Shown: positions 27,626 through 32,627 of the stretch, piece by piece | How the letters are laid out: each line of letters begins with the position of its first letter | Numbering within the stretch: position 1 is the stretch's first letter | Assembly: GCA_030613245.1 (NCBI GenBank) | Contig: JAUWMI010000046.1 | Span: forward strand, 1-33,688 | Source of the DNA: Candidatus Sumerlaeota bacterium | Lineage (GTDB): Bacteria; Sumerlaeota; Sumerlaeia; MWCT01; JAUWMI01 | Length of the DNA stretch: 33,688 nt | Direction: 5' to 3' | Position numbers and translations under genes: made by a program | The notes under the pieces: model-generated | Told to the model about the DNA's origin: nothing | Databases searched by the model: none | What the model saw: only the letters and a program-made list of their open reading frames with translations

Positions 27626-27711
27626 TATCTCTTTATGGCCAGGCCTGCGCTCAACCGTAGCTCCTTGCTGCATATCATACGCCAACTGCTGTGCCAGACA
27701 AACTCATCCGG

Positions 27712-27821
27712 TGATCTTTACCTTGACAGAATCAGTTGCCCATTCCTAAAATACATCTCATCTTGGTAAGTCAAGTGTAAACATATTCCGAGGATGCTTG
27801 CAGGGTTTGAGTCCCAGAGGG
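27712..27821 (+). promoter_or_regulatory. Duplicated promoter plus structured leader, copy 1
   Basis: A 110-bp block, repeated without gaps at 30884-30993 with about 80% identity. It contains TTGACA (27723-27728), an 18-bp spacer and TAAAAT (27747-27752), a good sigma70 promoter. The predicted transcript then has a stem CAAGTGT (27772-27778) pairing with ATGCTTG (27794-27800), followed by the perfectly conserved CAGGGTTTGAGTCCCAGAGG (27801-27820). In the second copy the stem bases differ but still pair. It ends 75 bp before the first gene of the secreted trio. A regulatory RNA leader is a reasonable inference; I cannot match it to a known riboswitch class. Confidence 0.65.
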
Positions 27822-27896
27822 AAACAGCACCTGCTTGGGACAGAGACAGCTTCATTAGCTTAAGCAACTATAACTAAATATGGGAAGGAGAAAGAA

Positions 27897-28823
27897 ATGA
27901 TTAAAGGTTATGGCTTTATTAACATCCTGCTGTTGGGAATCATGCTATGTATCTTCAATGGTGCCCTGGCAGACGAGACTCCTTTATCTTTTACTATCTC
28001 CATTGAAAAAGATGCTTATATGGAGGGGGAGCCTATAATTGTGACCGATACCTTAACAAATGTTTCAAATGCTGAGTTGATGATTGGGGAGCCTGTCGGT
28101 TCTTTTAGTCAACATGAAATGGAATGGCTGGACGGCAACACAAAGGACATTCCAAAGTTATGCAGAGATACGGCCGCTATTCCATACGACCACGCATTTA
28201 AATTGGAGCCAGGAGCAGGTATCCGATCTTTATCTAGCTTAATGGAAATTTATGCTTATGGCCTCCCAGTGGGAAAGTATTCTTTAAAGGCTAAATACGC
28301 TGTAGGCACAAGGTACTATCGTTGTTGGCATGGCGAACTCTGGTCAAATACTGTAAAATTTTCCGTTGCTTCTCCTGAAGGCAAAGAAAAAAAGGCTTTT
28401 CTCATTTATAAGGAGGCTAGAGATCTCATTAATAAAGGCGTCGACCTTGGAGTAGCGCGTAGTAAGATAGATACATTAATCAGTAATTACCCGGACACAG
28501 TTTATGCAAGACATGCTGATTTTTTGAAGGCAAAATCTCTTTGGGAAGAAGTAATAGACGGAAAACAGAATTTTGAAGGAGGCATAGAAGAGTTCAGAAA
28601 ATTTCTATCAAAATACCCTGATTCTCCCTATTGGAGCGAACAAGCACAGCAATCCATTGCCATAGGGCTCTTTGTATTGGGCAAGAAAGATGAGGCAAGA
28701 ATTGAATTCCAAAAACTGCCGGAAGGTTACTTGAAGCAGACGCACTTAGAGAAATTGAAACAAAAAATTCTTCTCGACCCTGGCGGATATTCAACCTACT
28801 CATCACAGGGAGGATTACATTGA
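27897..28823 (+). CDS. Secreted protein: beta-sandwich plus TPR-like repeats, paralogue 1
   Basis: 308 aa, function unknown. Signal peptide MIKGYGFINILLLGIMLCIF ending near ALA-DE. Residues about 28-160 look like an immunoglobulin-like or BsuPI-type beta sandwich (SFTISIEKDAYMEGEPIIVT, then DTLTNVSNAELMIGEP). The C-terminal part is helical with tetratricopeptide-like pieces (KIDTLISNYPDTVYARHADF, EEFRKFLSKYPDSPYWSEQA). The next gene has the same architecture and shared motifs, including YLEGEPI/YMEGEPI, WHG and KYPDS. GGGAAGGAG precedes the ATG. Its base composition is visibly A+T-richer than the core genes. A role in the periplasm or at the surface is inferred from the signal peptide only. 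Confidence 0.8.
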   Translation: MIKGYGFINILLLGIMLCIFNGALADETPLSFTISIEKDAYMEGEPIIVTDTLTNVSNAELMIGEPVGSFSQHEMEWLDGNTKDIPKLCRDTAAIPYDHAFKLEPGAGIRSLSSLMEIYAYGLPVGKYSLKAKYAVGTRYYRCWHGELWSNTVKFSVASPEGKEKKAFLIYKEARDLINKGVDLGVARSKIDTLISNYPDTVYARHADFLKAKSLWEEVIDGKQNFEGGIEEFRKFLSKYPDSPYWSEQAQQSIAIGLFVLGKKDEARIEFQKLPEGYLKQTHLEKLKQKILLDPGGYSTYSSQGGLH

Positions 28824-28853
28824 TGCTATTGAGCAAAAAGGAGGGGAATTCTT

Positions 28854-29774
28854 ATGAGATACTTAGCGAAACGAAGTGGAAAGTGTTTTCTGTTCATTGC
28901 ACTTCTGCTAATTATTGCAATACAATCAACCGCATCAGTGCAATCTTCCCCACTACAATTAAGCGTTCGTCTTAGTAAGACGTCATATTTGGAAGGTGAA
29001 CCGATACTGATTCTACTGCGCCTTGTCAATGTAGGACAAAAAGAACTAAAAGTTGCAGAGCCCTTGGTTCCTCAAGGTTTTCTAAAAATAGTGCTTAGAG
29101 GGGTGGATGCACAAGGAAAAGATGTGAACATTCCACGGCTGATGCGGGATGTACTTATGCCGCCGCAGGATTATGGTATTCAGCTTGCTCCCGCGCAGTC
29201 ATTAGAAATAATCTGGAGCCTCAACGAATCTTATCCGGGCGGCCTGTACGTCGGCTCTTATCGGGTGGTGCCCGTGTACGATACTGCCAGATATGCCTCG
29301 GCCTATCCTCAAATCTGGCACGGTATTATTACCGGAGATGAACTGAGATTTGATGTTAAGGCTCCAACAGGAACTGAAATGGCAGCCTGGAGTCTCTTTA
29401 AGGAGGCACGTGATATTTTAAATAGCAGATCCAGCACAGAATACTCCAAGGCTGGAAAGATTTTTTCGGATCTAATAGCAAAGTACCCCGACTCAGTATA
29501 CGCGCCATATGCATCTTACTTAATAGGGGAATCCTATTATTTCATGCAAACTGACAATACGCAGCATTTTGCCAAAGCAGTGCCTGCGTTCGAGACTTTT
29601 CTGGCCAGGTTTCCGAATTACCATTACTATTCCGATTTGGCGCGGACTTACTTAGTATTTTCGCTTCATAATCTGGGGCAAAATGAACGTGCTCTGCAAA
29701 TCCTCGAACAAGTTCCTGACGGACGCGGCAAAGATCTTATGCTAAAAATTATAAACAGCTCATTGAAGCAGTAA
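28854..29774 (+). CDS. Secreted protein: beta-sandwich plus TPR-like repeats, paralogue 2
   Basis: 306 aa, function unknown. Signal peptide (FLFIALLLIIAIQSTASVQS). The beta-sandwich region begins LQLSVRLSKTSYLEGEPILI and carries KVAEP. A middle motif YPQIWHGIITGDELRFDVKA aligns with YRCWHGELWSNTVKFSVASP of paralogue 1. The C-terminal helices include IFSDLIAKYPDSVYAPYASY and FETFLARFPNYHYYSDLART. AGGAGGGG lies upstream, 30 bp after the first gene's stop, so the two are co-transcribed. The pair clearly arose by tandem duplication and has diverged strongly. Confidence 0.8.
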   Translation: MRYLAKRSGKCFLFIALLLIIAIQSTASVQSSPLQLSVRLSKTSYLEGEPILILLRLVNVGQKELKVAEPLVPQGFLKIVLRGVDAQGKDVNIPRLMRDVLMPPQDYGIQLAPAQSLEIIWSLNESYPGGLYVGSYRVVPVYDTARYASAYPQIWHGIITGDELRFDVKAPTGTEMAAWSLFKEARDILNSRSSTEYSKAGKIFSDLIAKYPDSVYAPYASYLIGESYYFMQTDNTQHFAKAVPAFETFLARFPNYHYYSDLARTYLVFSLHNLGQNERALQILEQVPDGRGKDLMLKIINSSLKQ

Positions 29775-29867
29775 GGCTAAGGTTTTCTACCATAGAATAG
29801 AACGAGAAGATGGAATACAACGTAATGACATGATATTGGGACTCCGTATTATGAGGAGGACTGAACA

Positions 29868-30569
29868 ATGCAAAAAATATTTTCTGTAAGTCTTCTTCTA
29901 TTTTGCTCATGGTCTATTACACTATGGGGATACCAAGCGGAAGATCAAGCAAGCTCGTCAGATATAAAAGAAAAATTTGAACAGGCATATCAGGCGTATA
30001 CAAATATGCCTAGCACGCCTACAATACGATCAACCATTGGACCGGAGGAAGGTAGACATCTACATAATATCGCCAAACTAGGAGTGCCCGCTCTGCCATA
30101 TATTGTTGAAAAGATGAAAGAAACAAAGAACTTTTATCTAAATCTGCCTTTTTTAATAATAACGAGAAAATGCTTTGAAAAATCCGACTATGAAGATCCA
30201 AGCAAAATAGGAGACTCGAGAACAATACTCAAAATGCACATTCAATGGTGGGAGGAAGGCCGCAAGGAAACGCCTCAACGGTTTTCAAATCTGTATGCTG
30301 AATGGAAGCATTTAAGGGAAGCGGGTAAAGATAAAGAAGCAACCTCGAAGTATTACATGATAAGAAATCTTGGCATTGATGCCCTGCCTTTGATCGTCCA
30401 AAAAATAGGACAGGGCGACAGTGAATTGGTGCCCATAGTAGCATACCTCGATAATGATGTGAGCTCTACTGCCACAATATCGCAGGTGGTCTCCTGGTGG
30501 GCAGAAAATAAGAATAAATTGACACTCCCTCCAGTGGACGAACCATTAACCCCTGCTGCGACACCCTGA
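29868..30569 (+). CDS. Secreted protein of unknown function
   Basis: 233 aa. Signal peptide MQKIFSVSLLLFCSWSITLW ending near GYQAED. The mature part is mostly helical with two similar blocks, LHNIAKLGVPALPYIVEKMK and YYMIRNLGIDALPLIVQKIG. Each is followed by a segment containing WW (IQWWEEG, VSWWAEN), which suggests a duplicated HEAT-like unit. GAGGAGG precedes the ATG. It lies 93 bp after paralogue 2 on the same strand and is likely the last gene of the operon. I do not recognise a family. Confidence 0.75.
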   Translation: MQKIFSVSLLLFCSWSITLWGYQAEDQASSSDIKEKFEQAYQAYTNMPSTPTIRSTIGPEEGRHLHNIAKLGVPALPYIVEKMKETKNFYLNLPFLIITRKCFEKSDYEDPSKIGDSRTILKMHIQWWEEGRKETPQRFSNLYAEWKHLREAGKDKEATSKYYMIRNLGIDALPLIVQKIGQGDSELVPIVAYLDNDVSSTATISQVVSWWAENKNKLTLPPVDEPLTPAATP

Positions 30570-30883
30570 ATCGTAAAAATTCAATTGGAGGTGTGAACGA
30601 TATTGGAAGGATATTGAGACGTCGTTCCCGGTAATGAGCTAAGCTGAGGAAAATACATCTAAATATATAGACGCCCATGGAAAAGTAAGAAAGCCCCATA
30701 ATTAATTATCCTGCCCCATTTCAATGCACCGCCAAGAATGAATCGAGCATGTTTGGCGGCCATGCTCACTTCTTGCTATAGCTGTCACCCCTCAACCTGA
30801 AGTTTTCCTAGCCGTAAAAAATAAAACAGCTCTTATCCCAATCCTACGGACTAAACTTGCGTGCACTCGATAGACTGCTCTGC
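30570..30883. other. Spacer with a degenerate element end
   Basis: No gene seen. GGAGGTGTGAACG followed by ATATTG just after the third gene looks like a decayed ribosome site without a usable frame. TTAATTATCCTGCCCC (30702-30717) resembles the right end of the left-hand RAYT elements (TTAATTAACCTGTCCCC) and may be a solitary remnant. Confidence 0.35.
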
Positions 30884-30993
30884 TGATCTTTACCTTGACA
30901 GAATCAGCTGCTCGTTCCTAGAATCCGTCTCATGTTGGTAAGTCAGGCGTACCCAGAACAGGAGTGCGCCTACAGGGTTTGAGTCCCAGAGGG
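30884..30993 (+). promoter_or_regulatory. Duplicated promoter plus structured leader, copy 2
   Basis: Second copy of the block at 27712-27821. TTGACA (30895-30900), an 18-bp spacer and TAGAAT (30919-30924). The leader stem is AGGCGTAC (30945-30952) with GTGCGCCT (30964-30971), eight pairs including one G-U. The invariant CAGGGTTTGAGTCCCAGAGG follows. The block ends 116 bp before the chosen start of the M20 peptidase gene. Confidence 0.65.
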
Positions 30994-31109
30994 GAACCGT
31001 CCGGCTCGCCACAAGAACTTTATACGGAGGTCAAATCTGACAGGCAGTGGTTTCCCATTGAATGTATGCACAAACAGTCCATTGCCTGTGCATGGAAAGG
31101 ATTGAACAG

Positions 31110-32627
31110 ATGACTCTGTCGCGGCAAGAGCTAAAAGAGAAACTGGTGCACTGGGTTAATGAGAAACGCCAGGAGATCGTTGAAGAAACGGCTCGGCTAC
31201 TCTCTTTTCAGACAGTAAGTGGAGGCAAATCAGAAGCCGAAAAAGATACCTATAACCGCGAGATCAAACGCTGCCTGGAATATCTTGGGGCGCTGGCTGA
31301 ACGGCTGGGTTTAACATTTCGTAATTATGATAATCTTGTGGCGGTCATTGAACGAAAAGGCAATAAAAACGCGCTAGGCATTCTGCTGCACATTGACGTG
31401 GTTCCTCCAGGGGAAGGTTGGACGCATCCTCCTTTTGGTGGGGTTGTGGCAGACAACATACTCTGGGGCCGGGGCACTCAAGATGATAAGGCCCCCCTGA
31501 TGTCGTGTCTCTATGGTCTCGCAGCGGTAAACCACCTAGGGCTGGAGTTTACTCGCACCGTTAAAATAGCGATTGGAACCCGGGAAGAAACTGGTGAATG
31601 GGACGATATGCGCCACTTCCTGAATGTGGAGGGTGCCCCGGAATTCAGCTTCACACCGGATGCAAATTTCCCGATTATCAATGGCGAAAAGGGGATGCTG
31701 ACGCTACTCCTGAAGGCCGGCTGGCCTGGGATTAGTGCATCGCCAATAGGGCTCAGGGTGGTAACTCTTGAGGGAGGAGAGCGGGCAAACATGGTGCCAG
31801 ATCGGGCGGTGCTTTGCCTGCGGTTTCCCGAGGCAGAGGTTGAAAAAATCCAGGGGTTCATAACGGCGCAGACGCAAAGATTTCTCAAGGCGAACCCTGC
31901 GGCAAAGCTCGAACCTCTGCGCGTTCTTGGCAAGCAAGAAGAAAATCATCTTGTTGACGCAGAACTACTCTTCCTAGGAAAAAGTGCGCACGGTAGCCTT
32001 CCCTATGACGGTCATAATGCAATTCTCGATGGGCTGAAGTTTATCGCTTTTCTGGAACTCCCTTCTCAGCCGCTTGTTGCATATGCCCGTTTAGTTGATG
32101 CTGCATGTTCCGATCTGTTCGGCAACGGACTGGGTATTGCCCACGAACACCACTTTATCGGGAAAACAACCGTGAACCTGGGAATTTTACGACTTGATGA
32201 GCATGGTGCGGAAGGCAAAGTGAATGTGCGCCATCCGCTCGGCTTGACGATTCCTGAGGTGGTGAAGCGCGCGACTGGAGTTGTTAAAGAGGCAACCAGC
32301 AGCTCAGGAGTCGAGCTCCAGTGCGAGCGCGGCAGCAAAGGCGTGGAACCTCTGTTTGTCGATCCTGAAGAAAACCGTTTCTTTATTTCTTCTTTGCAAG
32401 AAGCCTACGAGACTATAACCGGCAAGGAGCCCCGGCTGGAAGCCATTGGTGGAACAACGTTTGCCAAAGCCTTTCCAAATGCCGTGAGCTTCGGGCCGGT
32501 CATGCTAGATGAGGAAAAAGAACTGGCGCACCAGACGGACGAACACGTCTCAATCGAGCACCTCCTTAGAAATACAAGAATTTATGGGTATGCCATTGCC
32601 TTGCTGTGCACGAAAATTGCACAGTAG
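31110..32627 (+). CDS. M20-family dipeptidase (PepV-like)
   Basis: 505 aa. Di-zinc aminoacyl dipeptidase. Metal and catalytic residues are visible: LHIDVVP (H94, D96), GRGTQDDKAP (bridging D125), REETGEW (catalytic E159 and ligand E160), FTPDANFP (D184), and a C-terminal ligand His in EKELAHQTDEH. The lid domain lies between (EGGERANMVPDRAVLCLRFP, HGSLPYDGHNA). PepV/Sapep-type enzymes hydrolyse short peptides in the cytosol; there is no signal peptide. I chose the ATG at 31110, with AAAGGA eight bases upstream. The ATG at 31062 adds 16 residues without support. Confidence 0.9.
   Translation: MTLSRQELKEKLVHWVNEKRQEIVEETARLLSFQTVSGGKSEAEKDTYNREIKRCLEYLGALAERLGLTFRNYDNLVAVIERKGNKNALGILLHIDVVPPGEGWTHPPFGGVVADNILWGRGTQDDKAPLMSCLYGLAAVNHLGLEFTRTVKIAIGTREETGEWDDMRHFLNVEGAPEFSFTPDANFPIINGEKGMLTLLLKAGWPGISASPIGLRVVTLEGGERANMVPDRAVLCLRFPEAEVEKIQGFITAQTQRFLKANPAAKLEPLRVLGKQEENHLVDAELLFLGKSAHGSLPYDGHNAILDGLKFIAFLELPSQPLVAYARLVDAACSDLFGNGLGIAHEHHFIGKTTVNLGILRLDEHGAEGKVNVRHPLGLTIPEVVKRATGVVKEATSSSGVELQCERGSKGVEPLFVDPEENRFFISSLQEAYETITGKEPRLEAIGGTTFAKAFPNAVSFGPVMLDEEKELAHQTDEHVSIEHLLRNTRIYGYAIALLCTKIAQ

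Follow-up and report, generated by a model that had tools for sequence, protein, structure and literature searches.

Promoter regions that were duplicated, or that were captured after gene insertion or tandem duplication, are a known kind of arrangement. The pair of sequence blocks described here resembles such cases in that same-strand copies precede different neighbouring units and that their similarity stops abruptly on both sides, but differs in that each block also takes in ~70 nt of transcript, in which two segments are strictly conserved, and in that the copies are ~22% diverged. Cis-regulatory leader RNAs, such as riboswitches and protein-binding leaders (Rfam 15), also lie at the 5' end of a transcript and have conserved segments around a variable stem. 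Unlike them, the block has no Rfam match, its stem is absent from the predicted ensemble of one copy, and no expression platform was seen. Parts of the block also recall the T-arm (GGG-UUUGAGU-CCC) and D-loop (UUGGUAAG) of tRNAs, since its loop resembles a T-loop and the hairpin appears in the RNAalifold consensus. However, the block has no acceptor or D stem, and the segment that resembles a T-arm is invariant in both copies. An origin from tRNA or tmRNA was rejected, as ARAGORN finds neither.

Within the window, by which we mean the whole 33,688-nucleotide stretch of DNA that was analysed, the feature is real and modest: a duplicated promoter with a 5' leader that links two units, whereas an RNA stem maintained by compensatory changes is not established. 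We assign a probability of about 0.62 to the explanation that duplication of a promoter and its 5' leader gave two co-regulated units. Through the shared promoter, a dipeptidase is linked to a secreted cassette that is itself uncharacterised, and this is a functional hint in a sparsely sampled lineage.

Duplicated promoters and the units they precede

The two blocks (Table 1) are 129 bp in length, 78% identical without gaps, and arranged as a direct repeat on the same strand with an offset of 3172 bp. They are true homologous copies, beyond chance. A BLAST search with copy 1 against the whole 4.29-Mb genome returned copy 2 at an E value of 3.8e-24, followed only by chance matches of 14-19 nt. 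In the register of 3172, identity rises from background at ~27690, stays high until ~27825 and then returns to background, and no extra similarity between the copies was found beyond the block edges, either upstream or downstream. An earlier note on this DNA had described 110-bp blocks at 27712 and 30884; the homologous pair stands, but its actual extent is the 129 bp that begin at 27697 and 30869.

Table 1. Positions in the window of the promoter-leader blocks, their elements and the associated genes
Feature	Positions	Strand	Remark
Promoter-leader block, copy 1	27697..27825	+	Upstream of secreted trio
Invariant 24-nt run TGATCTTTACCTTGACAGAATCAG over -35, copy 1	27712..27735	+	With TGAT/ATCA dyad (putative operator)
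Sigma-70-like promoter, copy 1	27723..27752	+	TTGACA-18-TAAAAT
Invariant 11-mer TTGGTAAGTCA, copy 1	27763..27773	+	Near predicted transcript start
Candidate weak stem, copy 1	27773..27799	+	AAGUGU/AUGCUU, unstable alone
Invariant 21-mer CAGGGTTTGAGTCCCAGAGGG, copy 1	27801..27821	+	
Secreted TPR-type protein 1	27897..28823	+	
Secreted TPR-type protein 2	28854..29774	+	Paralogue of protein 1 (~33% identical)
Secreted protein 3	29868..30569	+	No family
Promoter-leader block, copy 2	30869..30997	+	Upstream of M20 dipeptidase gene
Invariant 24-nt run over -35, copy 2	30884..30907	+	Inside GCTGAT-N15-ATCAGC (30882-30908)
Sigma-70-like promoter, copy 2	30895..30924	+	TTGACA-18-TAGAAT
Stable predicted hairpin, copy 2	30945..30971	+	AGGCGUAC/GUGCGCCU
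Invariant 21-mer, copy 2	30973..30993	+	
M20 family (Sapep/PepV-like) dipeptidase	31110..32627	+	

As the earlier note had stated, copy 1 lies ahead of a trio of secreted-protein genes and copy 2 ahead of a peptidase gene, with 69 and 110 nt, respectively, from the end of the shared block to the start codons. The peptidase scores 318 bits with the M20 dipeptidase family TIGR01887, for which the cut-off is 208, and the likelier start of its gene is the ATG at 31110, which follows GGAAAGG. The gene on the far side of block 1, transcribed divergently, is lpxD.

The promoters reported for the two copies are borne out. Both match 11 of the 12 consensus bases around an 18-bp spacer, and they are the two best-scoring promoter-like sites within 3.7 kb, so both copies would be predicted to start transcripts, at ~27759 and ~30931. 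The longest sequence that is identical between the copies is untranscribed and was absent from the earlier note: it is the 24-nt run over the -35 element, whose core has just two occurrences genome-wide, even when 3 mismatches are allowed. In copy 2 this run lies inside a perfect dyad whose half-sites are 21 bp apart from centre to centre, whereas the dyad of copy 1 is weaker, with just 4 bp per side. The identical -35 region probably holds an operator common to both copies. Since the promoter and transcript start are shared, it is probable that the two units are co-regulated. The earlier note had envisaged a shared regulon; common control of the two units agrees with our results, but a wider regulon does not, because the block is found nowhere else in the genome and would thus serve at most two neighbouring units.

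Conserved transcribed segments and the putative stem

Two further runs of perfect identity follow the 24-nt run: one of 11 nt close to where the transcript is predicted to start, and one of 21 nt located ~40 nt further on. When matches and mismatches were shuffled, a longest run of this length arose in 4% of cases, and a sum of the top three runs this large in 0.15% (p ~0.0015). Selection has probably kept the invariant segments, and the alternative of a patchy shared history is less likely because one of the runs coincides with the promoter. The invariant lead-in reported previously corresponds to the 11-mer, which is the same in both copies, and the reported 20-mer is indeed invariant but extends to 21 nt. 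Between these two segments most bases had been said to differ; divergence is evident, but amounts to 14 of 29 bases, or about half. The possibility of a leader peptide was rejected, as no frame through the block, read by eye, is kept with a start codon in both copies.

The divergent part between the 11-mer and the 21-mer was proposed to contain an RNA stem kept by compensatory changes. In both copies, six consecutive pairs can be formed in register (AAGUGU/AUGCUU and AGGCGU/GCGCCU). Of these, one pair differs on both sides, from A-U to G-C, and three differ on one side only, and copy 2 has two additional pairs that copy 1 does not form. On paper, therefore, the pairing is as claimed, with 6 bp and one double change, but its survival is not borne out by energy. 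The predicted probability of the six pairs is 0.9-1.0 in copy 2 and at most 0.04 in copy 1 in every window tried, and the energy of the isolated six pairs is about +0.3 kcal/mol in copy 1 versus -6.6 kcal/mol in copy 2. Whole-leader folding gives z-scores of 0.07 and -1.77 for the two copies, and RNAalifold does not set the two-copy alignment apart from its column-shuffled versions (p 0.07-0.15).

More specific tests gave lower frequencies. In 0.8% of column shuffles of the 76-nt alignment there was a stem of 6 bp or more in which four or more pairs varied and one of them changed on both sides; random letters at the changed positions kept all six pairs in 5%, and random placement of the changes did so in 1%. 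Slid registers pair far more poorly than the true one. These stem-specific tests (p ~0.005-0.05) are all post hoc and concern two sequences with a stem chosen after the fact, and a shuffle control based on pair counts is powerless with two sequences. Support for a conserved RNA stem is consequently weak, and for copy 1 the predictions lean negative. The locus also illustrates how readily two diverged copies can yield an apparent compensatory change.

According to the explanation we favour, a segment comprising the promoter, the control region upstream of it and the initial 60-70 nt of the transcript would have been duplicated, an event that probably accompanied the arrival of the secreted trio between lpxD and the M20 gene, and both copies would have retained promoter function. 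A common operator over the -35 element would then put the trio and the dipeptidase under the same control at the DNA level, and the two invariant early-transcribed runs would represent a common 5' leader element, acting as RNA or as DNA. If they act as RNA, they might bind a protein or a small RNA, or affect stability of the 5' end.

Other explanations must be weighed against this one. The first 65 nt could be a structured cis-regulatory RNA, in which a variable stem lies between conserved single-stranded or junction segments (UUGGUAAGUC, ACAGGGUUUGAGUCCC) that would bind a ligand, protein or small RNA and so control both units. We consider this doubtful: an arrangement of conserved segments around a variable one is indeed seen in many leader RNAs, and the stem-specific frequencies, the behaviour of slid registers and the copy 2 hairpin, with a probability near 1, are in its favour, but the copy 1 stem is nearly absent from prediction and unstable by energy, the z-scores and RNAalifold values argue against it, the favourable tests are post hoc and limited to two sequences, and there is no Rfam match, no further member and neither a terminator nor an obvious expression platform. 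In a more specific form, which we find unlikely, the 5' leader would be an RNA particular to this lineage, with a variable stem framed by two strictly conserved segments, and would jointly control the secreted TPR-protein cassette and the dipeptidase. Given that there are only two sequences, that copy 1 is not predicted to form the stem, that shuffled alignments fold about as well as the real one and that no relative with the block was found for a comparison of covariation, the undescribed structured regulatory RNA suggested by the earlier note is unsupported, though it is not refuted either. An RNA regulator in this leader would be new, if true, but our results do not suffice for such a claim.

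It is also conceivable, if improbable, that the early-transcribed shared segments function as DNA, either as the target of a transcription factor or in the control of early elongation, and do not act as RNA. In favour of this, the longest invariant run, with its conserved dyad, covers the untranscribed -35 region; however, the 21-mer starts ~40 nt into the transcript, which is far for a simple operator, and no factor was identified. Very improbable, in our estimation, is a decaying duplication in which one copy is now functionless and the runs of identity reflect chance or gene conversion. Free divergence in the middle of the block and the lack of a stable hairpin in one copy fit decay, but both promoters retain their near-consensus sequence and 18-bp spacer, identity clusters over promoter elements, and both copies are properly placed upstream of intact genes.

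Neither leader contains a terminator. Just 5' of the M20 ribosome-binding site, at 31040-31089, is an 11-nt inverted repeat (91%) with a 28-nt loop, and the other leader has no counterpart.

Distribution and neighbourhood of the block

As far as the collections searched have shown, the block is confined to this lineage. The phylum sample is sparse, comprising 40 genomes including this one, and the nearest relatives share only the order. In these 40 genomes, the 20-mer core with 2 mismatches allowed matched just the two known copies. A covariance-model search of the genome and its relatives, as proposed in the earlier note, also recovered no others among the 40 phylum genomes and 386 relatives. 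The exact gapped pattern was found three times across 85,000 species, versus an estimated chance expectation of roughly ten; with none accompanied by the neighbouring conserved bases, these matches were dismissed as chance. The gapped pattern had no match in viral contigs, and phage and plasmid matches of only 20-24 nt were likewise attributed to chance. Rfam 15 gave nothing at the gathering score and, at an E value of 5, just a chance snoRNA match elsewhere. No similar leader was seen upstream of M20 orthologues of other genera, and our literature search found nothing bearing on the element. A leader controlled by CsrA was rejected, as this 96%-complete genome has no PF02599 match while controls were positive.

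A weak covariance-model match also falls within secreted gene 3, in its coding part (29973-30037, 11.9 bits, E 0.21), with stem letters nearly as in copy 2 (TCAGGCGTA ... CGCCTACA). We take this candidate third copy to be a probable chance match.

The neighbourhood offers hints about how the two blocks arose. In one genome of the same class (G012), lpxD and M20 adjoin each other in divergent orientation, separated by ~260 bp and nothing else, and another genome (G006) has an HhH-GPD gene downstream of M20 on the same strand, as is the case here. These arrangements suggest an ancestral order of lpxD <- -> M20 -> HhH, although among ~30 relatives lpxD is beside M20 in only one, and HhH is beside M20 in only one. 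Because lpxD and M20 adjoin divergently in one member of the class, the secreted trio has probably been inserted between the two genes, with a copy of the promoter and leader ending up on each side, and the three-gene cassette was likely acquired. The trio segment (28000-31000) has a GC content of 0.41-0.44 versus ~0.51, but low GC content is not unique to it, as other parts of the contig are also low.

Upstream of the M20 orthologues of several relatives (loci L020, L024, L026, L028, L032, L034 and L044) there is an A-run followed by CTTCACA or a similar sequence, such as AAAAAAACACTTCACA in L026, and this motif is possibly a promoter element of the class.
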